Assembly: GCA_020852175.1 (NCBI GenBank)
Contig: JADZBH010000007.1
Location: forward strand, 1 to 64,000
Reading direction: 5' to 3'
DNA: 64,000 nt
Source: Bryobacterales bacterium
GTDB taxonomy: Bacteria; Acidobacteriota; Terriglobia; Bryobacterales; Bryobacteraceae
Numbering within the stretch: the first letter of the stretch is position 1; every line of letters starts with the position of its first letter. Below, piece after piece: positions 3,630 to 18,810 of this stretch. The notes under the pieces are model-generated. The model had not been told where the DNA came from, made no database searches, and saw only the letters and a list, made by a program, of their open reading frames with translations. A program made the position numbers and the translations under genes.

Positions 3630-4064
3630 ATGCGAAACGCGATCCTCACAGCGCTCCTGGTGGCCTCGGTCTGCCTCCCCTCCCTGCGTGCAGAGAAGAA
3701 AGCCATTCATCCTAAAGAGTTTGCCAAGGGTGGTCCGTTCACGCCCGGCATCCTTGCCGGCGGCACACTCCACGTCTCCGGCCAGGTTGGGCGGGACCTC
3801 AAGACGGGCCAGTATCCGGCCGCTTTCGAGGACGAGGTGAAGACCTGTCTGCAGAACATCGGCATCATTCTGAAAGAGGCCGGCATGGGCTTTCAGGACG
3901 CCGTTGCCGTTCAGGTCTATCTCACTGATATGGAACTCTTTCCCCGGATGAACTCGGTGTACACCACGTTCTTCCCGGAGCCTCGCCCGGCGCGCACCAC
4001 CGTCGGCGTCGCCAAGCTCGTGGGAACCGCCCGCATCGAGATCACGGTCACGGCTCGGAAGTAG
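3630..4064 (+). CDS. Secreted RidA/YjgF-family protein
   Basis: 144 residues. A cleavable signal peptide (about 1-21, ending LRAEK) precedes a RidA fold of about 120 residues. Family features include the early GG.L.VSGQVG strand, NIG.IL.EAG, and the C-terminal PARTTVGVAKL, which carries the Arg that binds carboxylates in enamine/imine deaminases. Family members hydrolyse reactive enamines made by PLP enzymes. An exported copy cannot act on cytosolic intermediates, so its substrate is unclear. Its last 17 nt overlap the end of the convergent rarA. Confidence 0.85.
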   Translation: MRNAILTALLVASVCLPSLRAEKKAIHPKEFAKGGPFTPGILAGGTLHVSGQVGRDLKTGQYPAAFEDEVKTCLQNIGIILKEAGMGFQDAVAVQVYLTDMELFPRMNSVYTTFFPEPRPARTTVGVAKLVGTARIEITVTARK

Positions 4065-5400
4065 GGCTTTCCCCCGAGGGATTCTCCTGTACTTGAGAGC
4101 GTTTGGCGCGCAACTGCTCCAGACGCTCGGCAATCCTGATTTCCAGCCCTCTCTGTACCGGGTTGTAGAAGCGTGTCCCCGCCAGTGAGGGGGGCAGGCA
4201 CTCCATGCTCACGAGGGCGTCGGCAAACTGATGGGCATGTTGGTAACCGCCGCCGTAGCCCCACTCCTTCATCGCTCGTGTGGGCGCGTTCCGAAGATTC
4301 ATCGGCACCGGCTCGGCGGGCAAGGAACGCACCGCCTCCCGCGCGGCGCCCAACGCCCGGTAGCCCGCATCCGACTTCGGCGCGACGGCCAGGTAAATCG
4401 CCACCTGGGCCAGCGCCAGGTCGCCTTCCGGTTCACCCAGGAAATGGAAGCACTCCTTGGCGGCCATGGCCTGTTCCAACGCCCGTGGATCGGCCAGCCC
4501 AATGTCCTCGATTGCCATCCGGATGAGCCTGCGCGCGATGTACATCCGGTCCTCGCCCGCCTCCAGCATCCGCGCCAGCCAGTAGAGCGCCGCATCGGGG
4601 TCCGAACTGCGCACGGATTTGTGCAGGGCCGAGATGATGTTGAAATGCTCCTCGCCGGACTTGTCGTAGAGCAGCATCTTGCGTTGCAGCGCATCTTCCA
4701 CGGTCTGCCGCGTCACCACGCCGGTGGGCGTTCCCGCCGCCACGATCTCCAGCAGGTTCAGCGCGCTCCGGGCGTCGCCGTTGGCGTGCGCGGCGATCAG
4801 GGCCAGCAACTCGTCCTCGATGGTGAGTTCCAATTCGCCCAGCCCCCGCTCCCGGTCTGTCGCGGCGCGCCGCAGCAGGATGGCGGTATCCTCAACGCTC
4901 AGTGCCCGCAACGCGTACACCCGTGTTCGCGACAGCAGCGCCGAGTTCACCTCGAAGCTGGGATTCTCCGTCGTCGCGCCGATCAGAATGACGTCGCCGC
5001 GTTCGACGAAGGGCAGAAAAGCATCCTGCTGCGCCTTGTTGAAGCGATGGATCTCATCGACGAAGATCAGCGTCCGGCGTCCCAGACGGCGCGCCCGCCC
5101 GGCCTCCTCCATCACGGCACGCACTTCCTTGATGCCGCTCATCACCGCTGAAAACGGTACGAAATCCGCCTCTGAGTGCCGTGACAGAATGCGCGCCAGT
5201 GTCGTTTTGCCCACGCCGGGCGGCCCCCACAGAATGATCGACGTCAGATCGCCACGCTCCAACTGACGCCGCAACGGTTTCCCCTCGCCCAGAATGTGCT
5301 CCTGGCCCAGGTAGTCCGTCAGCGTCTCCGGGCGCATTCGTTCGGCCAGGGGGCGAGGAGGCCCGGTCACATTCTCCGGCGCCGCATCAAATAAGCTCAC
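4048..5400 (-). CDS. rarA: Replication-associated recombination ATPase RarA (MgsA)
   Basis: 450 residues. An AAA+ ATPase with Walker A GPPGVGKT at about residues 59-66, Walker B LIFVDEIHRFN, sensor 1 (GATTENPSF) and the C-terminal RarA tetramerisation domain (about 260-440) ending in the MECLPPSL..RFY region. RarA acts at stalled replication forks and interacts with SSB. The start is GTG at 5400, with AGGGA 8 nt upstream; it overlaps the 3' end of the upstream methyltransferase gene by 14 nt, so the two are likely co-translated. The length is normal for the family. Confidence 0.93.
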   Translation of the reverse strand: MSLFDAAPENVTGPPRPLAERMRPETLTDYLGQEHILGEGKPLRRQLERGDLTSIILWGPPGVGKTTLARILSRHSEADFVPFSAVMSGIKEVRAVMEEAGRARRLGRRTLIFVDEIHRFNKAQQDAFLPFVERGDVILIGATTENPSFEVNSALLSRTRVYALRALSVEDTAILLRRAATDRERGLGELELTIEDELLALIAAHANGDARSALNLLEIVAAGTPTGVVTRQTVEDALQRKMLLYDKSGEEHFNIISALHKSVRSSDPDAALYWLARMLEAGEDRMYIARRLIRMAIEDIGLADPRALEQAMAAKECFHFLGEPEGDLALAQVAIYLAVAPKSDAGYRALGAAREAVRSLPAEPVPMNLRNAPTRAMKEWGYGGGYQHAHQFADALVSMECLPPSLAGTRFYNPVQRGLEIRIAERLEQLRAKRSQVQENPSGESPTSEP

Positions 5401-6163
5401 GCGTACGATCCCTGGCGGCCAGCATCCGTTGCCGTGCCGCTTCATACAGGATGACACCGGCGGCAACGGCGGCGTTCAGCGACTCCACGCCGGCAGTTGG
5501 TATCCGCACATCCACGGCGCACCCGCGCATGGCCGCGCTTACGCCGTGCGCTTCGCTGCCCACCAGCAGGGCCGACTTGCGCGTGAAGTCGGCTTGTTCC
5601 AGCGGCATCGCGCCTCGCGGTTCCGCCGCATACACGTCCACACGCCTCTGCCGCAGCGCCGCGCGCGCCACATCCGCGTCCAGCGCCGCCAGAAAGGGCA
5701 GCCGGAACAGGGACCCGGCCGAAGCCCGCAGGGTCTTCGCATTGAACGGGCTCACCGACCCCTTCAGAAACATCACCCCTGTCGCGCCGAACGCCTCCGC
5801 CGTGCGAATCACCGTTCCCGCGTTGCCGGGGTCCTGCACTCCGTCCAGCACCACGACAAGAGACCGCCCGCGGAACAACTGCTCCACCGTCCACGCCGGC
5901 GGCTCCACCAGCGCGATGACGCCCTGTGCCGACTCGGTGGAGACCACTGCCTGGAACAACTCATCGGGCACCACATGCACGGCGGTTCCCCGCAGCCCTT
6001 TCACATGTGGTTCCACGGCCGCGCCGACGCTTTCGGCCGCCAGGATCGCCCGCACGGGCCGGCCCGAACGGATGGCTTCTTCCAGCAGATGAAAGGTCTC
6101 CGCCACGCAGCAGCCGTCGCCGGTCAACTCGCCCCGGGACAAGGCACGGCGCACCTCCCGCAA
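5387..6163 (-). CDS. TrmH/SpoU-family RNA 2'-O-methyltransferase
   Basis: 258 residues from a TTG start. It shows the SPOUT motifs: DPGNAGTVIRTAEAFG (motif 1), a motif 2 region LLVGSEAHG, and the C-terminal knot ESLNAAVAAGVILYE. The N-terminal substrate-binding domain spans about 1-100. Family members methylate ribose in rRNA or tRNA; the target nucleotide cannot be assigned here. The conserved family N-terminus (ITSAKNP) continues upstream of the TTG in the same frame to about 6190, where only CTG (6188-6190) or a more distant ATT is available, so the true start may be non-standard. It is the first gene of a pair with rarA. Confidence 0.88.
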   Translation of the reverse strand: MREVRRALSRGELTGDGCCVAETFHLLEEAIRSGRPVRAILAAESVGAAVEPHVKGLRGTAVHVVPDELFQAVVSTESAQGVIALVEPPAWTVEQLFRGRSLVVVLDGVQDPGNAGTVIRTAEAFGATGVMFLKGSVSPFNAKTLRASAGSLFRLPFLAALDADVARAALRQRRVDVYAAEPRGAMPLEQADFTRKSALLVGSEAHGVSAAMRGCAVDVRIPTAGVESLNAAVAAGVILYEAARQRMLAARDRTRELI

Positions 6164-6249
6164 GATCGGATTCTTGGCGCTGGTGATCAGCCGGGAACTT
6201 GTCGTGCGGGGCGTCGTATGCTGAATTCTAACGCAGAAGGCTAATACGC

Positions 6250-6852
6250 TTGCGATTCTCCCGAATTCATCCTGCGCTCCTGCTCACGGGAGCGGCGCTT
6301 CTGGCCGTGCTCACGGCCGGATTCGTACGCGTCACCGCGGCCATCGCACGCCAATCCAGCGTGGATGAAGCCCGCGCGGCCGATGTGATCGTCGTCATGG
6401 GAGCCGCCGAATACAGTGGCCGTCCTTCGCCGGTACTCCGCGCCCGTCTCGACCACGCCCTCGACCTGTGGCGCCGCGATCTCGCCCCGCGTATTCTCAC
6501 CACGGGCGGCGCGGGCGGCGATCCGGTGTTCACCGAGGGCGAGGTGGGCCGCACTTATCTTACGCAGAAGGGCGTACCGCCCGAAGCAGTCATTGTCGAG
6601 CCGGAAGGCGAGTCCACGGCTCACTCCGCGCTGGCCGTGGGCGAACTCCTGCGCCGCATGGGACTCCGCTCCTGCATCGTGGTCAGCGACGGCTACCACA
6701 TCTATCGCGCCAAGCGCCTGTTGGAAAGCCGGGGCTTGAAGGTATACGGTTCTCCCCGTCCCGAACCGGTTCAGGAGGGCTGGCGGCGGTGGCGGCTTTA
6801 CGCCCGCCAGGCGGCCGGCTATATCCTGTGGTCCGTCGGCGTCGTGATCTGA
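6250..6852 (+). CDS. YdcF/SanA-like DUF218 protein, membrane-anchored
   Basis: 200 residues from a TTG start. One N-terminal membrane helix (about 9-32) is followed by a DUF218 domain with the typical ADVIVVMGA, ILTTGG, EGESTAHSA and SCIVVSDGYHIYRAKRL blocks. The family includes SanA, ElyC and YdcF, implicated in envelope integrity and cell-wall precursor metabolism, with the domain outside the membrane. The start is not certain, since no Shine-Dalgarno is visible. It is divergent from the methyltransferase and precedes a 255-nt gap. Confidence 0.85.
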   Translation: MRFSRIHPALLLTGAALLAVLTAGFVRVTAAIARQSSVDEARAADVIVVMGAAEYSGRPSPVLRARLDHALDLWRRDLAPRILTTGGAGGDPVFTEGEVGRTYLTQKGVPPEAVIVEPEGESTAHSALAVGELLRRMGLRSCIVVSDGYHIYRAKRLLESRGLKVYGSPRPEPVQEGWRRWRLYARQAAGYILWSVGVVI

Positions 6853-7035
6853 CCGCGCCTCCATTGGCGAACTCACGATGCGTAGTGTCGCGCACCAGCT
6901 CCAGCGGGCACGTTGAAGGCCGCCCCCGCGCCTCGCACGGCCGGGCAACACGATGTCCTTCATCGATGGGTTGCGGCCACTGAAAGCGGAACAGGCGCCT
7001 TTCCGCCCGCAAACCACACCACCGTCCTGAGATCT

Positions 7036-7107
7036 GTTTCACGACTTATTGCATTTATTTAAATTAACATATAACTCTACGATAATTCGTATTAATTATG
7101 TTTCGGC
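7036..7107 (+). promoter_or_regulatory. AT-rich promoter region of the Cys-rich peptide operon
   Basis: About 60 nt of strongly AT-rich sequence (7040-7100) stands out in this GC-rich chromosome, directly before the ATG at 7108. TTGCAT at about 7048 and TATAAC/TAACTC about 15-17 nt later could be -35 and -10 elements. The rest of the gap (6853-7035) holds nothing recognisable. Confidence 0.4.
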
Positions 7108-7365
7108 ATGGAGTACAATCTTTCCTTGCGAAGCATACTCTTCGCTCTCCTCGCGCTCTTACTCGCGCATGGCACGCACAGCCCGGCCAGCGCTGGATGT
7201 TCCGGTTACGCCTCGGGCTGCTGCGACACGGAAGAGTGCGATTACACTTTCGTCTCGGTAACCTGTGACGACGCACCTAGCTGGGCCTGCCTATATTGGG
7301 AGTGCACATACGAAGATGGCGGGAGTTTCTGGACCAATTCCGGACAGTCCTGCTCCAATACGTAA
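7108..7365 (+). CDS. Small secreted cysteine-rich protein
   Basis: 85 residues. The signal peptide (about 1-29) ends PASAG. The mature part of about 56 residues contains eight cysteines (single, CC pair, then five more) plus several Trp and Tyr and many acidic residues, so up to four disulfides are possible. No family is recognised. The cysteine density and export suggest a disulfide-stabilised extracellular mini-protein, such as a binding, inhibitor or toxin-like peptide, but the function is unknown. The next gene starts 17 nt after its stop on the same strand, so the two are probably co-expressed. The upstream region is unusually AT-rich. Confidence 0.7.
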   Translation: MEYNLSLRSILFALLALLLAHGTHSPASAGCSGYASGCCDTEECDYTFVSVTCDDAPSWACLYWECTYEDGGSFWTNSGQSCSNT

Positions 7366-7382
7366 ATGAGCCAGGCAACCTT

Positions 7383-8270
7383 ATGCGCACCACCTTCTTG
7401 AAGCTAGCCAATCTCGCCATTCTTATCCCGGCTGCATCGCTGTTTGTCTATGGACAAACAGCAGCTCCGTCCCGCGGTGCCGTCAAGATTCCAACTCAAG
7501 TTGTCGAAATACAAGACCATCGTCTGACTATCAATATGCAAGGGCTGCGAGACGGCGTGGACTGGGTGCTGGGCGTGGTTCCGGCGCCAAAGCAGGTTTC
7601 AAATGCGCTGGTTGCGGCCGTGCGGGGCGACTCGCTGCGTGCGGACAAACCACCAGCCATTCGGGTTCCGGCCGAGCAATGGATCAGCTCCACTCCAGGG
7701 GAAGCGCAAGTGCGGCTGCCGGAGAGCGAGATGGGGCGGGAGGGCCCTCTCTTCGTGCGCGTAAATGCGCCTCCCGGCACTGAGTTCCTCGTCCAGGCGC
7801 GCGGCAAGCTTGCGGCCGCGCTTACCCTGGCGTCCAGTGAAATCGTTCTCCACAACGGCAGGCTCGCCGATGGACGCGCCACGACCTTTTCCCGCATGGC
7901 ACGAGCCGCGGCGAGTCCGCTGGACCGCGGGCCGCAGCTCTTGCCAGACGGAACCACGCGAGTGGAAATGGATCAACTAAAGCGTCACATCAAGTCGGTG
8001 AGCCGCCCGGCGGCCTCAGCCATTCCGGCGAACTGCTGCCAGGGCAAGGCTGACCAGGCCGTTGTCCTCCGGCTGTCGATTGGTGCGGACGGAAGGGTCA
8101 CTCATACCCGGCGCCTGTTTGGCGATCGGTCTTTGGCGGAGGCCTGCGCGGCCGCCGCCATGCAGTGGGAGTTCATACCCATCCATGTGGATGGGACATA
8201 CCCGGCGGTTGCCGCGGACGTGATGTTCTTGGCCAGCCCGAGTGGCTTCAAGGTCTCGCTGCTGGACTGA
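7383..8270 (+). CDS. Secreted TonB C-terminal-domain protein
   Basis: 295 residues. A signal peptide (about 1-25, ending VYGQ) leads to a roughly 180-residue region of unknown type, then a TonB-C-like domain (about 220-285): VVLRLSIGADGRVTHTR, AAAAMQWEFIP and a final strand. In TonB this fold contacts the TonB box of outer-membrane receptors. Here there is no proline-rich spacer and no retained inner-membrane anchor, so it is not a standard energy transducer. It has a CC pair just before the domain. It shares a likely transcript with the upstream Cys-rich protein. Confidence 0.7.
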   Translation: MRTTFLKLANLAILIPAASLFVYGQTAAPSRGAVKIPTQVVEIQDHRLTINMQGLRDGVDWVLGVVPAPKQVSNALVAAVRGDSLRADKPPAIRVPAEQWISSTPGEAQVRLPESEMGREGPLFVRVNAPPGTEFLVQARGKLAAALTLASSEIVLHNGRLADGRATTFSRMARAAASPLDRGPQLLPDGTTRVEMDQLKRHIKSVSRPAASAIPANCCQGKADQAVVLRLSIGADGRVTHTRRLFGDRSLAEACAAAAMQWEFIPIHVDGTYPAVAADVMFLASPSGFKVSLLD

Positions 8271-8387
8271 CGCAGCGCAAGTCCATATCGGTTGTTGGCT
8301 GCTGCCAGTCTCTGGCGTCAACGGCGTACGCTGGTGCGCCATCGCGTGCGCAGCGCGGATTCGAAGCAGGCCGGTTCGCGCCGGTTC

Positions 8388-9176
8388 CTACAGTTTCAAC
8401 AGCGCCCGCAGCCGCTTGGTCTGAACGCGGCTCACCGGAATCTCCGTGGCCTTCTTATCGTCCATCCGCAACTGGAAGCTCGATTTGAACCACGGAATCA
8501 CTTCGCGAATCCGGTTGATGTTCACCAGGTAGCTCCGGTGCACGCGCCAGAAGGTCTCCGGATCGAGGTTCGATTGCAACTCCTCGATCGTGCGGTAGTT
8601 CGAGATCCCCTCGAACTGCGCGCTCACCACCGTGATCAGCCCATCGTCGATCGTGGCATACACAATGTCCTGCGCATCGACAATCAGATTCCGCCCGCTG
8701 GACTTCACCAGCACCTTGGTCCGTTGCAGCGCCGGTTTGGACGCGGGGGGCTCCGGCGCGGGGGCCGCCGCCTCGGCCTTCTGCCGCTCCAGGATAATCC
8801 GTTGCGCGCGCTCGACGGTCTGTTTCAGCCGTTCGCTGTCGATCGGCTTCAGAATGTAGTCCAGGGCCTCGAACTGGAAGGCATGCACGGCATATTCGTC
8901 GAATGCCGTCGCGAGCACGAAGTAGGGGACGTGCGCGCCCTGCTCGTGCAGGCTCCGGATGACTCCAAGACCGTCCAGGCCTGGCATCTGTACATCCAGG
9001 AAGACCAGGTCCGGTTCCAGGTCGAGAACCTTTTCCACCGCCTCACGTCCATTGGAGGCCGTACCGATGATCTCGATTTCCGGAAATTCCTTGAGCAGGA
9101 AACTCAGTTCGTCCGTGGCCAGCGGTTCATCGTCGGCCAGAAGCGTGGAGATTGTAGCCACCGCGCGAGCCTGCAT
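8388..9176 (-). CDS. LytTR-family response regulator
   Basis: 262 residues. The receiver domain (about 10-125) has the acidic pair DDE at 15-17, phospho-acceptor Asp61 in LDVQMPG, Thr90 and Lys110 (LKP). An Ala/Pro-rich linker (about 135-155) leads to a LytTR DNA-binding domain (about 155-260) with the usual FWRVHRSYLVN motif. Such regulators are usually phosphorylated by a LytS/AgrC-type membrane kinase; none is adjacent, so the partner is elsewhere. A TATACT -10-like element lies 8 nt upstream of the ATG. The gene is divergent from ino1. Confidence 0.92.
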   Translation of the reverse strand: MQARAVATISTLLADDEPLATDELSFLLKEFPEIEIIGTASNGREAVEKVLDLEPDLVFLDVQMPGLDGLGVIRSLHEQGAHVPYFVLATAFDEYAVHAFQFEALDYILKPIDSERLKQTVERAQRIILERQKAEAAAPAPEPPASKPALQRTKVLVKSSGRNLIVDAQDIVYATIDDGLITVVSAQFEGISNYRTIEELQSNLDPETFWRVHRSYLVNINRIREVIPWFKSSFQLRMDDKKATEIPVSRVQTKRLRALLKL

Positions 9177-9184
9177 TCAGTGTT

Positions 9185-9190
9185 AGTATA
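9185..9190 (-). promoter_or_regulatory. -10-like TATACT, 8 nt from the response-regulator ATG
   Basis: On the minus strand TATACT is followed by only 8 nt before the start codon at 9176, too short for a Shine-Dalgarno. It suggests a leaderless or near-leaderless transcript. Confidence 0.45.
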
Positions 9191-9247
9191 ACAACGTTGG
9201 TTTAGCAGCCACGCACCCTGCCATTGTGCCCCCAAGGAGTTGATTTC

Positions 9248-10564
<1,317 letters not shown>

Positions 10565-11560: not shown

Positions 11561-13218
11561 CCGGCGCTTCACTCTTCATCGACGCCCTCGCCTCGCTGGG
11601 CATCCGCGAGATTTATACCCTGGTTGGCGACCACTTGAACGAGGTGCTTTCCGAAGCGGGAAAGCGCGGGTTCGACATCGTCGATTTCCGCCATGAATCC
11701 GGTGTGGTCCATGCCGCCGACGCCGTGGGCCGTCTCCGCCGCAAACCCATTGTCACGCTCGTCACCGGGGGCCCGGGGCACACCAACTCGCTCACCGGTC
11801 TGGCCACGGCTTTTCAGGCGTGCAGCCCCGTCATCACCGTCAGCGGCGCGCCATCGACGGCCCTCGCCGGGCGTCAGGTGTTCCAGGTGATCGACCAGGT
11901 CCCCATGGCGGCCCCGGTTTGCAAATGGGCAGCCTCGCCCGCCGCGGCGGCGCAGATTCCCTACTATCTCGGCCGCGCCTGGCAGGAGGCCACTACGGGA
12001 CGTATGGGCCCGGTTCATCTCACCATTCCCGTCAATCTCTTGGAAGCCCAGGTGAATGGTCCGGTGCTGCCGCTACAGCCGCCCGCCGCTCCACCCGAAA
12101 CCGCCCCGTCCGCCACTGAAATCGAACGCGCTCTCGCCCTGCTCCGCTCCGCCCGTAACCCTATCGTCATCGCCGGCAGCGGCCTGTGGTGGTCGGATGC
12201 GGGCGCCGAACTGAAGGAATTCCTCCGCCGCACCTCGCTTCCTCTGTACACCGTCACGATGGCGCGCGGCGTGGTACCCGATAGCCACCGTCTCTGCTTC
12301 GGTTATGCCGACGGCGCACTCAACAAAGCCGTACACCGCGCCTTTCCGCAAGCCGACGCCGTACTGCTGCTGGGTAAACGCCTCGACTACCGGCTGGCTC
12401 TCGGCGGCCGCCGCCTTTTTGCACCGGACGTCAAATTCATTCAGATCGACATCCACGCCCCCGAGTTGGGCAACGCGCGGCCCATCGAGGCCGGCATCTG
12501 CGCCAACCTGAAGCCCGCGCTCCGCATGATGAACGCGGCGATCGGCAAGCAGGCCTGGCCCGCCAATGCAGCCTGGCTGCGTACGCTTCGCAAGTACCGG
12601 GCTGAGTGGAACGCCGAAGTCGCCGCCATCGCGGGCGACCGTTCCGCCCCCATCCATCCCGCCGCGTTCTTCGCCGAGTTGAAGGCCGCGCTGCCCGCGA
12701 ACGTCCTGTATGCCTGGGACGGCGGCGACTTCATCCACTGGGGCCGCGCCACGCTGCCCGCCGAACGCGCCGGCGCATGGCTGCGCCTGGGTCCGCTCGG
12801 TACCATCGGCTCCGCCCTGCCGAACTCCATCGCGCTCCAGCGCGAGTTTCCCGATGAGCCCGTGGTCATGATCACCGGCGACGGCTCGCTTGGCTTTTAC
12901 CTGGCCGAACTCGACACGCTGGTCCGCCACGGCCTTCCGGTTGTTGTTATCGTTGGTAACGATGCCGGCTGGGGGCTCGAGCGCGAACTCCAGGGAGAGC
13001 TTTGCGGCACCACGGTGGCTTGCGAACTCAGCCCGGCGCGATACGATCTCATCATGCGGGGATTTGGCGGCAAGGGTGAGAATATAGAGACTTTGGCCCA
13101 GGTGGGTCCGGCCGTGAGGCGCGCCTTTGCATCCCGCCGGCCCTATCTGTTAAATGTGAATGTGCGCGGGGCCCGGTCGCCTTTCACCCAATGGCAGATC
13201 GGCGGAAAGAAAACGTGA
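11557..13218 (+). CDS. Thiamine-diphosphate enzyme, acetolactate synthase-like
   Basis: 553 residues with the three-domain layout of acetolactate synthase/benzoylformate decarboxylase. The N-terminal Pyr domain has the catalytic Glu in FRHESGVVHAAD, the central domain spans about 190-330, and the C-terminal PP domain has the ThDP/Mg motif starting GDGSLGF and ending at VGND. The ATG overlaps the epimerase stop (ATGA), and its TGA overlaps the GTG of the sigma factor gene. No small regulatory subunit or ilvC is adjacent, so branched-chain amino acid synthesis is not indicated; a decarboxylase or lyase role is possible. Confidence 0.85.
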   Translation: MTGASLFIDALASLGIREIYTLVGDHLNEVLSEAGKRGFDIVDFRHESGVVHAADAVGRLRRKPIVTLVTGGPGHTNSLTGLATAFQACSPVITVSGAPSTALAGRQVFQVIDQVPMAAPVCKWAASPAAAAQIPYYLGRAWQEATTGRMGPVHLTIPVNLLEAQVNGPVLPLQPPAAPPETAPSATEIERALALLRSARNPIVIAGSGLWWSDAGAELKEFLRRTSLPLYTVTMARGVVPDSHRLCFGYADGALNKAVHRAFPQADAVLLLGKRLDYRLALGGRRLFAPDVKFIQIDIHAPELGNARPIEAGICANLKPALRMMNAAIGKQAWPANAAWLRTLRKYRAEWNAEVAAIAGDRSAPIHPAAFFAELKAALPANVLYAWDGGDFIHWGRATLPAERAGAWLRLGPLGTIGSALPNSIALQREFPDEPVVMITGDGSLGFYLAELDTLVRHGLPVVVIVGNDAGWGLERELQGELCGTTVACELSPARYDLIMRGFGGKGENIETLAQVGPAVRRAFASRRPYLLNVNVRGARSPFTQWQIGGKKT

Positions 13219-13838
13219 GCGAAAATCCGTCCGGAACGCCGCCTTCCGAATCCACCGAGCAGGTCACCCGCCTGCTGCTGGAGTTGAATGCGGGAAACCA
13301 TGCGGCCATCGAGTCCCTCATGCCGCTGGTGTATGACGAGCTGCGCCGCATCGCCGCCAGGCACCTGAATCGCGAGCGCCTGGATCACACGCTTCAGCCC
13401 ACGGCCCTGGTCCACGAGGCCTATCTACGGCTGGTTGACCAGCGCGCTCCCCACTGGCAGAACCGTCTTCACTTTATGAGCGTCGCCGCCACGATGATGC
13501 GCCGCGTGCTCATCGACCATGCCAAGGCGCGCCACCGCGTCCGCCGGGGCGGGGCGAATCAGCAGCGCGTCCTGCTGGAAGACAACATCGCCGGCACAGA
13601 CAACCGCGTGCTGGAGGTTCTCGCCATCGACGAAGCGCTCGATAAGCTCACCGCCCTCGACCCGCAACAGGCGCGCGTCGTGGAGTTGCGCTTCTTTGGC
13701 GGGCTGAGCGTCGAGGAGACCGCGCAGGTGATGGGAGTTTCCACGCCCACCGTCAAACGCTACGCCAACTCCGCCCGGGCTTTTCTTCACCGCGAAATGC
13801 ATCGCGACGGCCCGGCTCCGGAAGCAACGGCGCCCTGA
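13215..13838 (+). CDS. ECF-family RNA polymerase sigma factor (Acidobacteria-type)
   Basis: 207 residues from GTG at 13215, which overlaps the previous stop codon as GTGA. Sigma region 2 (about 45-115, LRRIAARHL..ERLDHTLQPTALVHEAYLRL) and region 4 (about 135-190, LSVEETAQVMGVSTPTVKR) match the group common in Acidobacteria and Planctomycetes that sits beside Ser/Thr kinase genes. No anti-sigma gene is present. The kinase starting 23 nt downstream is the probable partner. An ATG at 13191 is possible but lies inside the upstream gene without a ribosome site. Confidence 0.9.
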   Translation: MSENPSGTPPSESTEQVTRLLLELNAGNHAAIESLMPLVYDELRRIAARHLNRERLDHTLQPTALVHEAYLRLVDQRAPHWQNRLHFMSVAATMMRRVLIDHAKARHRVRRGGANQQRVLLEDNIAGTDNRVLEVLAIDEALDKLTALDPQQARVVELRFFGGLSVEETAQVMGVSTPTVKRYANSARAFLHREMHRDGPAPEATAP

Positions 13839-13861
13839 TTTCCCTCTTAGGTGGACCATTC

Positions 13862-16597
13862 ATGAACCCGGAACGCTGGAAACAGGTTCGCGACATTTTC
13901 GACGAAGTCGTCGAAATGGATGCGGTTGAGCGCAACCGCCACCTGCTGGTTTCCACGGATGGTGACCCCGGCCTCCGCCTCGAGGTCGAGGAACTGCTCC
14001 ACAGCTACGACGAATCCGACGACATCATGGACCGGCCGGCCGCGGACGGGCTGGGCGACCTGCTTTCCTCCGGCCCAACGCCGCGAGCGGCTGGAACCAG
14101 TCCCTTTTCCGGAAGCTTTCCCGGTGGCCAAACCGCCTCCGGCGCGCCACTGCGCGGCACGCCCAGCGACTACACCTTCACCGGACATCACGTGGGCAGC
14201 TTCCGGCTGGTGCGCAAAATCGGCGCCGGGGGGATGGGCAGCGTCTATGAGGCGCTGCGCGACGACCATGCGTTCCAGCAGCGGGTGGCCATCAAGTTCG
14301 TCAAGCCCGGCATGGGCGCCAGCGGCATTCTGCAACGCTTCCTCACCGAACGCCAGGTGCTGGCCGGGTTGAACCACCCCAACATCGCCCGCCTGCTGGA
14401 TGGCGGCACCACGCCCGACGGACTTCCTTACTTCGTCATGGAGTACGTCGATGGCACGCCCATCGACCGCTACTGCGACGAAAAGCGCCTGAACATCGCC
14501 CAGCGTCTCGCCCTGTTCCGCACCGTCTGCGAGGCCGTCCAGTATGCCCATCAAAACCTGATCGTCCACCGGGACCTGAAACCGGCCAACATTCTGGTCA
14601 CTCCCGCCGGCACGGTCAAACTGCTCGACTTCGGCATAGCCAAACTCCTCGGTCCTGCCGTCGGCGAGGAAACCATCGCCCACACCACCGACGGTTCGCC
14701 CATGACGCCGGAGTTCGCCAGCCCCGAACAGGTGCAGGGCGACAACGTCACCACCGCCAGCGACATCTACGCCCTGGGCGTTCTGCTCTATCAACTCCTC
14801 ACCGGGCGTTCTCCTTACCGGCTGGACTCCTGGACCGCTCCCAAGCTTTTCATCGCCATTGCCGAACAGCAGCCCGAGCGGCCCAGCGAACGGGTTCTCG
14901 CCGATGAGGAATCCATGGCCGGCAGCGGAGAAAAGCGAGTTGTCCAGGCTTCGCTCGCCGCGTTGGTTCGCGAGGGCACGCCCGACCGGCTCCACCGCCG
15001 CCTTTCAGGCGATCTCGACATCATCGTCCTCACGGCGCTGCGCAAGGAGCCGGCCCGCCGCTACGCGAGCATCGAGCGTTTCTCCGACGATCTGCGCCGC
15101 TTCCTCGAAGGCCACCCCGTTTCGGCCCGGCCCGACACGCTTTCCTACCGTGCCGCCAAGTTCACGCAGCGCCACCGCGCCGGAGTCGCCGCAGTCGCCC
15201 TCGCCCTGCTGGCCCTGCTTGGCGCCACCGTCGTCAGCCTTTACTATGCCCGCGCCGCCCGTCAGGAACAGCTCATCGCCGACCGCCGGTTCCAGGATGT
15301 CCGCCAGCTCGCCCGGTTTGTCATGTTCGAATTCGACGATGCCATCCGCGCGGGAGAAACCCCGGCCCGCATCATGCTCGTCAAGCGAGCCTTCGAGTAC
15401 CTGAACGGGCTCTCCAAGGAGGCCGTGGGCGACATCTCCCTGGAACGCGAGGTCGCGCAGGCTTACCTCAAGCTCGGCGACATTCAGGGCAATCTCTACA
15501 CCTCCCACGTTGGCGACCGCGAAGGCGCGCTGGAAAGCCACCGCCGCGCGCTCGACATGGCCAACCTCCTGGCGGGCCGCCCCAACCCCGAACCCGCCGA
15601 TCTCATTCTCGCTGTCCGTGCCAAAACGGGGCTCGGCGACCTCCAGTCCCTCGGCGGAGACCGGCGCGACGCCCTCCGTCTCTACCAGGAGGCGCGCTTC
15701 GTCGCCGAATCCCTCGACCGCCGCGGCCGCACACCGGAGACCATCCAGCAGCTTGCCGAAGTCGTCGCCAAGGAAGGCTTCGTGCAAAGCCAGCTTGGCA
15801 ACCTGAATTCCGCACGTGAAGACTTCCAGCGCGCGCTGCGCCTTGCCTCTGAATGGCAGCGTCTCGATTCGAACAGCCCGCTGGCCCAACGCTGTAGCGC
15901 CATGGCCACCAGCCGCCTGGGCGAACTGCTGGTGCGCTCCGGCAACTCCGCCGAGGGGCTCGTCTCGCTCCGCCGGGGCGTCGCTCTTTATGAAGACCTT
16001 GTCCGCGCACAACCCGGCGTAACCAGCCACACCCGCGACCTCGCCGCCACTTCCATCCTGTACGGCGACGCCCAGCTCAGCGCCTCACACGCCGGCGAGG
16101 CCGTCTCGGCCTATCGCCGCGCCCTTCATATCGCCGAGGGGCTTTCCGCCGGCGACCCAAAGAACCAGCAGTATCAACGCGACCTGCACCTCGCACTCGG
16201 CCGCCTCGCCGATGCCCTTTCCAGCGCCGGGAACCCTCAGGAAGCCCGCCTGATGACCTCCCGCGCGCTCCACGTACTCAAGCCCCTGGTCGATCTCCCC
16301 TCGCCTTCCTCCTATGACATCCAGCAATACGTCTGGCTGCTGGTCACAACCCCCTACCAGGAACTGCGCGACCCGGCCCGGGCGCTCCCCTACGCGCAAG
16401 CCGCCGCGCGCATGACGAACTCCTCCGACCCCGCCGTGCTGGACGCCCTGGCGCGCGCCTACTTTGGAGCGGGCAACAAGGCCATGGCCGTGGAAATCGA
16501 ACGCCGTGCGCTCGCGTTGCTTCCCGCCCCCGGCGCGGGCAGCGTCAGCGCCCTCCGCAAGGAACTGGAAGCTAATCTGGAGAGGTTTCAGAAGTAG
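13862..16597 (+). CDS. Membrane Ser/Thr protein kinase with C-terminal TPR repeats
   Basis: 911 residues. The N-terminal leader (1-105) begins with the RWKQVRDIFDEV motif common in these kinases. The catalytic domain (about 110-415) has glycine loop GAGGMGSVY, Lys145, HRDLKPAN with catalytic Asp238 and DFG 256-258. One membrane helix spans about 441-462. The rest, probably extracytoplasmic, is helical with TPR-like repeats (about 500-900) and likely senses or recruits proteins. All catalytic residues are present. It is the last gene of the ino1 run and is probably functionally tied to the adjacent ECF sigma factor; the substrate is unknown. Confidence 0.92.
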   Translation: MNPERWKQVRDIFDEVVEMDAVERNRHLLVSTDGDPGLRLEVEELLHSYDESDDIMDRPAADGLGDLLSSGPTPRAAGTSPFSGSFPGGQTASGAPLRGTPSDYTFTGHHVGSFRLVRKIGAGGMGSVYEALRDDHAFQQRVAIKFVKPGMGASGILQRFLTERQVLAGLNHPNIARLLDGGTTPDGLPYFVMEYVDGTPIDRYCDEKRLNIAQRLALFRTVCEAVQYAHQNLIVHRDLKPANILVTPAGTVKLLDFGIAKLLGPAVGEETIAHTTDGSPMTPEFASPEQVQGDNVTTASDIYALGVLLYQLLTGRSPYRLDSWTAPKLFIAIAEQQPERPSERVLADEESMAGSGEKRVVQASLAALVREGTPDRLHRRLSGDLDIIVLTALRKEPARRYASIERFSDDLRRFLEGHPVSARPDTLSYRAAKFTQRHRAGVAAVALALLALLGATVVSLYYARAARQEQLIADRRFQDVRQLARFVMFEFDDAIRAGETPARIMLVKRAFEYLNGLSKEAVGDISLEREVAQAYLKLGDIQGNLYTSHVGDREGALESHRRALDMANLLAGRPNPEPADLILAVRAKTGLGDLQSLGGDRRDALRLYQEARFVAESLDRRGRTPETIQQLAEVVAKEGFVQSQLGNLNSAREDFQRALRLASEWQRLDSNSPLAQRCSAMATSRLGELLVRSGNSAEGLVSLRRGVALYEDLVRAQPGVTSHTRDLAATSILYGDAQLSASHAGEAVSAYRRALHIAEGLSAGDPKNQQYQRDLHLALGRLADALSSAGNPQEARLMTSRALHVLKPLVDLPSPSSYDIQQYVWLLVTTPYQELRDPARALPYAQAAARMTNSSDPAVLDALARAYFGAGNKAMAVEIERRALALLPAPGAGSVSALRKELEANLERFQK

Positions 16598-16601
16598 GCG
16601 G

Positions 16602-17303
16602 CTACCGGCGCCGCCAGGCTACCAGAAGCAGGCCCGCACCCATCAGCGCCAGCGTGCCTGGTTCCGGCACCTCCGGCGTCTGGCTGAAGGGAGCGCGCGC
16701 ATGCAAATCGAAGTTGGCATTCCCATAGACGCGAATCCGGTGCAGTACCTCCACCCAGTTCGTCGCTTCCTCGAATGTCACGCCATCGAACGTCTGATTT
16801 GCGTTCAACAGCAAGGGCCCGTAGAACGAGCCGAAGCACTCGCCGCGCGCGAAACTCCCGCCTACGCATAGATCCGTGTACACCTCGATGCCCGGCACGG
16901 CGGTCGCCTGAAGACGTTCGAACGAGCCGAAATCCATCTCCATCTCGAAGCCGAGAATCACGGGAGGCGGCGGATCGATCGTGTACTGGATCAGGTATTC
17001 GGCATACTCGGATTCGGTCTCCGCCGGAAATGCGAACGGCCCGGAAAAGCTCAGTCCGATACTCCCCTCGCCGTAGCTCACGCTTACGCCGACGCCGTCG
17101 GCCGTGGTGGCATCCTCACCGGCAGGTGCGCTGAAGGTAACTTTGAAGATGGAAAACGGCGCGGCTCCGCAGCCGCCGCCCGCCATCAACCCGCTCAGCG
17201 TCGTGATCGTGCTGCACGGACCAAGGCTGGAGGGATCCGGACCAATACCGCCTCCGAATGCGGCCATGGAAAAGAGCAGGGAAAACAACCCCAACTTGCA
17301 CAT
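16602..17303 (-). CDS. PEP-CTERM-anchored exported protein
   Basis: 233 residues. A signal peptide (1-17) leads the protein. The C-terminal 22 residues are a textbook PEP-CTERM sorting signal: VPEPGTLALMGAG, a hydrophobic helix, then WRRR. Such proteins are processed by exosortase and usually sit on the surface or in an exopolysaccharide matrix. The body is a low-complexity, acidic beta-rich domain with few cysteines. The ATG at 17303 has AGGA 4 nt upstream. No exosortase or polysaccharide gene is in the window. The upstream 250 nt contain an unusual series of hairpins. Confidence 0.9.
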   Translation of the reverse strand: MCKLGLFSLLFSMAAFGGGIGPDPSSLGPCSTITTLSGLMAGGGCGAAPFSIFKVTFSAPAGEDATTADGVGVSVSYGEGSIGLSFSGPFAFPAETESEYAEYLIQYTIDPPPPVILGFEMEMDFGSFERLQATAVPGIEVYTDLCVGGSFARGECFGSFYGPLLLNANQTFDGVTFEEATNWVEVLHRIRVYGNANFDLHARAPFSQTPEVPEPGTLALMGAGLLLVAWRRR

Positions 17304-17631
17304 GATGTCCTCATTATCCGGACGTGGGGTGAAAGAAAAGCAAGAGAGGGAAGTACCAGTCAGTACTGGTGCGCAGCCACCGTCTCCGAGAACGGTGGCT
17401 GCACCGTCGCGGGCGCTCGCTCCTCCGTCAAGCGCTCGCGGCAAAGGGAGGTCTCCGACACCCCCCAGCCGGCTTTTGAACCGGAAAGGATCCGGGCTCC
17501 TCCAAACGAACCCGGCTCGAACGGCATCGCCGTTCCATCCGAATCAGAAAGCTTGATGTACGGTAACGCGACACAGACCCCATTCAGGGATCACGGAAGT
17601 AAACTTTTGAGCGCTTTTTCTGCTATGTGGT
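17304..17631 (-). other. 328-nt noncoding region packed with stem-loops
   Basis: No convincing gene lies here. Between 17355 and 17535 seven inverted repeats follow one another: 17519-17535 (7 bp, 3-nt loop), 17492-17515 (8 bp, one wobble), 17469-17484 (6 bp, one wobble), 17446-17466 (7 bp, one wobble), 17413-17435 (5 bp, weak), 17373-17402 (11 bp perfect) and 17355-17370 (6 bp, 4-nt loop). On the minus strand the loops of the fourth and sixth share TCGGAG. The region would form the 5' leader of the PEP-CTERM mRNA or a separate structured RNA. None resembles a riboswitch I can name. Confidence 0.45.
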
Positions 17632-18810
17632 TTATGACAACGGCGGACACGGCCGCCCGAGCAACAATTCGACATCTCTTCGCAGCGGTTCCACGGCGTG
17701 GGCGAACATTTGTTTGTAGGCGCTACAAAAGTAGTCCAAATCGCTAAAATCGCCGCGCCGCCCCACACGGAACTTGGGGCAACCACCGTGGCAGAGTGAC
17801 CGCCACTGGCATTGCTCGCACGCCGGGTGCGGAACGGCCTTCTTCGAGGCAAACTCCATCCGCTGTGCCCGCCGCGCCACCTCGGGCCACGAATCTGTAA
17901 TCAGGTTCCCCAGCCGCCAGCCGCCTTCCACGAAGAAGTCGCACGGATAGATGTCGCCGTTGTATTCCACGACAACGTAGCTGTCGCAACTCTTGTGCAT
18001 GGTGCAGGCGCCCGGTTTCATCCCCGCCACGCCCTCGGCCAGGTTGTCGAAGCAGCGTATGCGCACGGTCCGCCGCTCGGGCCACCAGAGATCGAAGGTC
18101 TCCACCAGAAACCGCCCATATTGCGAAGGGGTGATGGTTTCCGGCAGCGGACGCCCTTCGGCGTCGAACTCCGACAGCGGGATGTACTGAATGTTGTCGA
18201 TGCCGAGCCCGCGGAAGAACCGGTAAATTTCCCGCGGCTGCTCCACGTTCGACTGGCTTAACACGCACAGAATGTTGAACTCCGCCTTCCCGCGTTGCAG
18301 CGTTTCCAGCCCCCGCATGACCTGCCGCCACGACCCCGTTCCGCCTTTGTTGACGCGAAACCGGTCGTGTACCTCTTCGGGGCCATCCATCGAGAGGCCG
18401 ATCAACCAGTTGTATTCGTGAAAGAACTCCGCCCAACGATCGTCCAACAAAACGCCATTTGTCTGGAGAGCGTTCGAGACATTCTGGCCGCCGCGGCCAT
18501 AGCGCTGCTGAAACTCCACCAGTTTCTCGAAAAACGGAAGGCCCGCCAGCGTGGGCTCTCCGCCTTGAAACGCGAAGGTCGAGTTCGGGTAGCTGTAGTA
18601 CATCCAGGAGTCCACCAGCCGGCGCAGGGTCTCCTCGGGCATCCTTCTGTGCTCGATCTCTTTGTAGGGGTCGGCCTTGCGGTCCAGGTAGAAGCAGTAG
18701 GTGCAATCCAGGTTGCACAGGGCCGAAGCCGGTTTGATCAGCAACGATTGAATCCTCGGAGCCGCCACGGGCGTCCGGACCGGCGCTTCCAACTGAACCA
18801 GTGGACCCAT
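17632..18810 (-). CDS. Radical SAM protein, anaerobic sulfatase-maturase-like (SPASM)
   Basis: 392 residues. The radical SAM motif CNLDCTYC (CX3CX2C) lies near residue 32, with the GGEPTL motif about 60 residues later. The C-terminal SPASM domain carries further cysteines (GACTMHKSC, IYPCDFF, CEQCQWRSLCHGGCP, YFC) for auxiliary 4Fe-4S clusters. This layout matches anSME enzymes, which convert a Ser or Cys of sulfatases to formylglycine. No sulfatase is in the window, so related SPASM peptide-modifying functions remain possible. The ATG at 18810 is only 6 nt from a TACAAT element, suggesting a leaderless mRNA. Confidence 0.88.
   Translation of the reverse strand: MGPLVQLEAPVRTPVAAPRIQSLLIKPASALCNLDCTYCFYLDRKADPYKEIEHRRMPEETLRRLVDSWMYYSYPNSTFAFQGGEPTLAGLPFFEKLVEFQQRYGRGGQNVSNALQTNGVLLDDRWAEFFHEYNWLIGLSMDGPEEVHDRFRVNKGGTGSWRQVMRGLETLQRGKAEFNILCVLSQSNVEQPREIYRFFRGLGIDNIQYIPLSEFDAEGRPLPETITPSQYGRFLVETFDLWWPERRTVRIRCFDNLAEGVAGMKPGACTMHKSCDSYVVVEYNGDIYPCDFFVEGGWRLGNLITDSWPEVARRAQRMEFASKKAVPHPACEQCQWRSLCHGGCPKFRVGRRGDFSDLDYFCSAYKQMFAHAVEPLRRDVELLLGRPCPPLS

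Follow-up and report, generated by a model that had tools for sequence, protein, structure and literature searches.

A conserved array of GGA-loop hairpins upstream of a PEP-CTERM gene, a candidate CsrA-binding RNA in Acidobacteriota

Introduction

CsrA is a global regulator that recognises GGA, and most of its known RNA antagonists come from Gammaproteobacteria. CsrA sites are marked by GGA in hairpin loops; SELEX gave the consensus RUACARGGAUGU with a preference for six-base loops, and no more than four contiguous pairs were present in most of the selected hairpins (PMC7652899). One CsrA dimer can bridge two sites that are 10–63 nt apart (PMC7652899). BarA-UvrY, the driver of CsrB/RsmZ-type sRNAs, and fliW are strongly anti-correlated, and species with FliW, Acidobacteria included, probably depend on FliW protein, while the existence of inhibitory sRNAs in these species was left open (PMC4682653).

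CsrA is also bound by the leaders of mRNAs. In Escherichia coli, the pgaA leader holds six CsrA sites (PMC7652899). The Campylobacter flaA leader, in a genome with fliW, is both a target and a sponge of CsrA, and the leader of the Salmonella fimAICDHF mRNA titrates CsrA but is not itself under CsrA control (PMC4894983). For flagellin mRNAs controlled by CsrA, an arrangement of a GGA hairpin together with a GGA at the ribosome site has been described (PMC4894983).

Here we analyse a row of hairpins in a 64,000-nt stretch of DNA from a Bryobacterales bacterium (hereafter the window), and compare it with these systems. A literature search that covered few subscription journals found no earlier description of CsrA RNAs in Acidobacteria, or of PEP-CTERM genes in connection with CsrA.

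Results

Hairpins between two minus-strand genes

Positions 17304–17631 of the window are flanked by an anaerobic-sulfatase-maturase-like gene and a PEP-CTERM gene. Because both are minus-strand genes, a leader or sRNA in this region is read on the minus strand (Table 1). The PEP-CTERM gene has profile matches to PF07589 (E 7e-8) and TIGR02595 (above cut-off), its ATG start codon is at 17303–17301, and a Shine-Dalgarno-like GAGGA is located at 17311–17307. The plus strand at 13191–16597, convergent with this gene, carries an ECF-type-sigma-factor-like ORF and, after it, a Ser/Thr kinase of 911 aa (NF033483 domain match).

Three genomes of the genus were compared: that of the window, Bryobacterales bacterium SJ244 and Acidobacteria bacterium UWPOB_ACIDO1. 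Gene order on either side of the hairpin region is the same in both relatives, which also carry the sigma-factor-like ORF and kinase pair, and the region can be aligned almost throughout. The PEP-CTERM protein has orthologs with 84% identity in SJ244 and 53% in UWPOB_ACIDO1. Orthologs of the sulfatase maturase-like gene, about 65–70% identical, occur in about half of the genomes of the family.

The original prediction, made from the sequence of the window, had described seven adjacent inverted repeats in this region. All seven were located (Table 1), and the perfect 11-bp stem within H5 and the 7-bp stem with 3-nt loop of H1 were exact. That the hairpins exceed chance was borne out by their fold energy, which is better than that of dinucleotide shuffles on both strands (z −3.15 with 1/100 shuffles as good on the plus strand; z −3.18 with 0/100 on the minus strand). 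The prediction had also noticed that TCGGAG is common to two loops on the minus strand; this is correct, and GGAG is actually common to four. As for position, the hairpins do lie upstream of the PEP-CTERM gene, but the wording that they sit just before its ribosome site is too loose, because about 50 nt lie between the last hairpin and the start codon. Comparison with the relatives supports five or six of the seven hairpins. The repeat at 17469–17484 is disrupted in both SJ244 and UWPOB_ACIDO1; it belongs to the variable sequence that links H2 to H3. The hairpin sequence is present once in the window's genome, which rules out a repeat element.

Table 1. Features of the hairpin locus and of the csrA locus in the same genome
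Feature	Position	Strand	Remarks
Anaerobic sulfatase maturase-like radical SAM/SPASM gene	17632..18810	-	Upstream of hairpin RNA; TIGR03942, 386.9 bits, above cut-off
Conserved block TCGCGTTACCGTACATCA	17554..17571	-	Upstream of hairpins; TACATC/TACAAC may be a promoter -10 region (unproven); aligned in three genomes
H1	17519..17535	-	Hairpin, 7 bp; 3-nt loop in window copy; loop without GGA
H2	17492..17515	-	Hairpin, 8 bp; loop GUUUGGAG at 17500-17507; GGA site 1
Seventh inverted repeat of the original prediction, CCGGUU-CAAA-AGCCGG	17469..17484	-	Only in window copy; not conserved
H3	17446..17466	-	Hairpin, 7 bp; loop GUCGGAG at 17453-17459; GGA site 2
H4	17408..17440	-	Hairpin, up to 12 bp; loop ACGGAGGAG at 17420-17428; GGA sites 3 and 3'
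H5	17371..17404	-	Hairpin, 13 bp; perfect 11-bp core 17373-17402; loop UCUCGGAG at 17384-17391; GGA site 4
H6	17355..17370	-	Hairpin, 6 bp; 4-nt loop; no GGA; no T-run directly after
Start region of PEP-CTERM gene, CCGGAUAAUGAGGACAUCAUG	17301..17321	-	Possible CsrA site over ribosome site; alignment of three genomes
PEP-CTERM sorting-signal protein gene	16602..17303	-	233 aa; downstream of hairpin RNA
fliW-csrA-flagellin-flagellin cluster	3852-9908 of locus L037		Contig C64 of the window's genome (G000), outside the window

Conservation and pairing

Summed over hairpins, H2–H5 of the window are 97% identical to SJ244 (109/112) and 92% identical to UWPOB_ACIDO1 (103/112). The corresponding values are 95% and 88% for the whole RNase P RNA, and 65% and 37–43% for the four-fold degenerate sites of the two flanking genes. 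Constraint on the hairpin element is of about the same strength as on RNase P RNA; the H2–H3 linker is unconstrained (14/25). According to the original prediction, lack of conservation in relatives would have counted against it; the element is present in both other genomes of the genus, at a level far above neutral expectation. The stem sequence of H5 is almost invariant, with 2 changes in 34 nt against UWPOB_ACIDO1, which exceeds what pairing alone demands.

Over the three genomes, 31/32 loop positions are invariant: the loops of H3, H4 and H5 do not change, and in H2, whose stem pairs in all three genomes, only the first loop base varies. For the 52 pairs considered in three genomes, 97.4% of cells are paired, versus 38–44% when the partner is slid. 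Four pairs are changed on both sides, two of them in H1 and two in H4 (G-C to A-U and A-U to G-C), and seven more are changed on one side with pairing kept. H3 and H5 each have two one-sided stem changes that keep pairing, and H4 has two further pairs altered on one side together with one A-C mismatch in the window copy. In H1 two pairs are broken, each in one genome, and H6 is weakened in UWPOB_ACIDO1 by loss of one pair (A-A mismatch). The observed number of two-sided pair changes is reached by 37/500 shuffles, and covariation is thin because the RNA is present in only three genomes of one genus. As to covariation, which the original prediction had named as a test, the four pairs changed on both sides back the proposed structure and, coming from three sequences, are supportive rather than conclusive.

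In the three-genome alignment, 1-nt indels at several places shift every reading frame, and the same hairpin bases fall in different frames in the window and in UWPOB_ACIDO1. The constraint is therefore on RNA (or DNA) and not on protein, and both a coding extension of the PEP-CTERM gene and an antisense ORF were ruled out by these broken frames.

GGA in four hairpin loops

The loops of H2–H5 all contain GGAG in all three genomes. This regularity, which points to CsrA, had gone unnoticed in the original prediction. GGA is found at an equivalent place in these loops, one base ahead of the 3' arm or repeated once more, and GGA sites 1–4 are spaced by 47, 30 and 39 nt. Four GGA hairpin loops were observed per genome against a shuffle mean of about 0.2, and 0/500 dinucleotide shuffles per genome reached four in each of the three genomes. 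A string search over 1.16 Mb of the genome, both strands included, found four GGA hairpins within 170 nt at this place only, and about 20 clusters of three. Because the criteria for GGA loops were chosen after the element had been seen, we give more weight to the rank of the cluster than to a probability. When GGA loops are simply counted by folding, such a number is not very rare, since four looser GGA loops, of different form, are reached at 2 of 27 unrelated loci (those with the sulfatase-maturase ortholog outside the genus, described below).

The loops do not closely match the consensus ACA-GGA-GU or CANGGANG in hexaloops: GGA is present, the flanks differ and the loops are 7–9 nt long. 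In the full-length fold, the unpaired probability of the H3 GGA is 0.06 in the window copy, where it is mostly paired, versus 0.81 and 0.76 in the relatives.

Known classes and occurrence in other genomes

No family among 4227 Rfam models matched the element. Two chance matches far below the gathering scores were all that Rfam gave, and a known riboswitch or other RNA class was thereby ruled out. Rfam models of CsrB/RsmZ-type sRNAs, which are built from Gammaproteobacteria, gave no match at E up to 5. The original reading as a structured RNA, an mRNA leader or a small RNA, of no class that could be named from the sequence appears well founded, given the conservation, the pairing and the lack of a Rfam match.

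A covariance model built on the three sequences found the element only in the genus's three genomes among 257 genomes of the order, and only in the window's own genome among a sample of 396 genomes of the phylum; diverged relatives could be missed because these scans scored only 7–12 candidates per genome. Of the weak extra matches, those that were inspected (L033, L034, L130–L132) fall within long open frames and are probably due to chance. When genome contigs were scanned with a DNA pattern, only SJ244 and UWPOB_ACIDO1 matched. In the three genomes of the genus the hairpin RNA follows the sulfatase maturase-like gene. It is absent from the orthologous loci examined outside the genus, 27 in number, none of which has a comparable hairpin array beside the ortholog.

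Transcript signals and start region

On the minus strand, conserved sequence at 17554–17571 and upstream (TGATCC, TCGCGT-A-CGTACA) may be a promoter or an activator site. A scan of the hairpin locus found no sigma-70-like promoter, and the -10-like hexamer of the conserved block shows no enrichment upstream of genes in the window's genome. No intrinsic terminator was found by scan at the locus, neither after H6 nor between the hairpins and the PEP-CTERM gene. Just upstream of the start codon, the GGA in GGAUAAU is kept in all three genomes; a GGA inside the Shine-Dalgarno sequence itself is present in the window (GAGGA) and SJ244 (as GGGGA) only. Accessibility of the start-region GGA varies among the three genomes (0.0, 0.41 and 0.74 unpaired).

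CsrA, FliW and flagellin in the same genome

The window's genome has one csrA (PF02599, 60.7–60.8 bits; a 79-aa CsrA). Both relatives also have one csrA, and in all three genomes it adjoins fliW. In the window's genome, fliW-csrA is directly upstream of two flagellin genes. The leader of the first flagellin gene contains a hairpin with GAGGAUU in the loop (GAGGAUC in UWPOB_ACIDO1), whose stem covaries among the three genomes with changes that keep pairing, and GAGGAG at the ribosome site. This anatomy is that of CsrA-controlled flagellin mRNAs (PMC4894983), so a plausible CsrA target of a similar kind is present alongside the hairpin RNA in one genome. Judged by its leader sequence, the first flagellin gene is likely a classic CsrA target in Acidobacteriota.

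Discussion

We propose that a structured regulatory RNA, about 200 nt long and with four GGA-loop hairpins, is encoded on the minus strand of this region; it most likely binds CsrA, and would act as a decoy, as a leader that responds to CsrA, or as both. We give this reading a probability of about 0.55. It is built on the conservation, the structure and the GGA loops, together with two features of the genome: it encodes csrA and fliW, and one of its flagellin leaders has the sequence layout of CsrA targets. Because the four main loops all show GGA, the RNA probably soaks up or responds to CsrA. Several features argue against CsrA binding: the stems of H2–H5 are long and GC-rich, their loops have 7–9 nt without ACA/GU flanks, and the GGA of H3 is mostly paired in the window copy. 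CsrA binding, transcription of the RNA, the position of its ends and its action in cis or in trans are inferred.

In its intergenic row of hairpins with GGA loops, in a genome with csrA, this RNA is like CsrB/CsrC and RsmX/Y/Z of Gammaproteobacteria, and the spacing of its sites suits bridging by CsrA dimers (PMC7652899). Unlike these sRNAs, it has longer stems and GGAG instead of CAGGAUG-type repeats, it stands directly before a gene, no terminator was seen, and its host is an acidobacterium with fliW. It has four GGA hairpins, compared with about 22 GGA in CsrB. It has no sequence or Rfam match to those sRNAs, and because the match to Rfam and the consensus flanks are both lacking, we do not file it as a CsrB/RsmZ member. 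Its noncoding leader position, its several GGA sites and the GGA near the ribosome site are shared with CsrA-bound leaders such as E. coli pgaA and Campylobacter flaA. The differences are that its gene encodes a PEP-CTERM surface protein, its CsrA sites are candidates located in long hairpins some 50–200 nt upstream of the start, and the hairpins are much better conserved than the coding gene. The fimAICDHF leader of Salmonella, likened here by description only, would suit an RNA joined to a surface-protein gene that evolves fast, but it belongs to another gene and phylum and has no fliW context.

The RNA may act in cis only, as the PEP-CTERM gene's 5' leader, with CsrA bound there and at the ribosome-site GGA repressing (or activating) that gene alone, as in E. 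coli pgaA. We consider this possible, at less than even odds. The lack of a terminator between the hairpins and the gene points to it, as do the GGA of GGAUAAU kept before the start in three genomes, the second GGA in the Shine-Dalgarno-like GAGGA of the window, synteny with the PEP-CTERM gene in 3/3 genomes, and the precedent of the pgaA leader (PMC7652899). However, the gene evolves fast, with 53% protein identity to UWPOB_ACIDO1 against 92% for the hairpins, and a purely cis-acting element need not be so rigid; moreover, about 50 nt and one more hairpin separate the GGA hairpins from the ribosome site. The conservation of the hairpins far beyond that of the downstream gene agrees better with action in trans only, in which an independent sRNA with its own promoter near 17555 sequesters CsrA and the PEP-CTERM gene is merely a neighbour. 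The close succession of GGA hairpins, which recalls RsmZ/CsrB, and the conserved block TCGCGT-A-CGTACA upstream of H1 are in line with such an sRNA. Nevertheless, this reading seems rather unlikely to us, as the block has neither a promoter match nor hexamer enrichment, H6 is followed by no intrinsic terminator, and every known copy is next to the PEP-CTERM gene.

A conserved structured RNA need not bind CsrA at all. It could instead serve another protein or ligand, as a leader or as an sRNA, and its GGAG loops could have another purpose, for example to pair with a pyrimidine-rich target. The departure of the loops from the best CsrA consensus, the very stable stems and the conservation of stem sequences beyond pairing all speak for this, and we hold it to be a minority view of some weight. 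It leaves aside that GGAG is common to four loops and that csrA and a flagellin leader with a GGA hairpin are present in the same genome, and no Rfam class was matched. The hairpins could also be functionless products of chance in GC-rich DNA, where short hairpins are common. This explanation is extremely improbable: fold energy has a z of about −3.2, the GGA-loop count is never reached in shuffles, and conservation equals that of RNase P RNA beside near-random four-fold sites. Conservation in the two relatives, together with the shuffles, ruled it out.

If the proposed CsrA-binding RNA is correct, two CsrA dimers would probably be bound, each bridging two hairpins. This is a reasonable guess because the spacing of 30–47 nt is within the bridging range of 10–63 nt. 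The RNA would then titrate CsrA away from other targets, for example the flagellin mRNA, as a decoy like CsrB/RsmZ; alternatively or in addition, it would be the 5' leader through which CsrA governs translation of the PEP-CTERM gene. More tentatively, it may be a genus-specific CsrA decoy that arose in evolution independently of gamma-proteobacterial CsrB/RsmZ, works alongside FliW, and couples a surface-protein locus to flagellar control. The hairpins represent a new RNA family with no Rfam entry, found only in this genus among the genomes scanned. As a conserved GGA-hairpin array in an Acidobacteriota genome with fliW and csrA, it offers a concrete candidate for the question whether inhibitory sRNAs exist in species with FliW.
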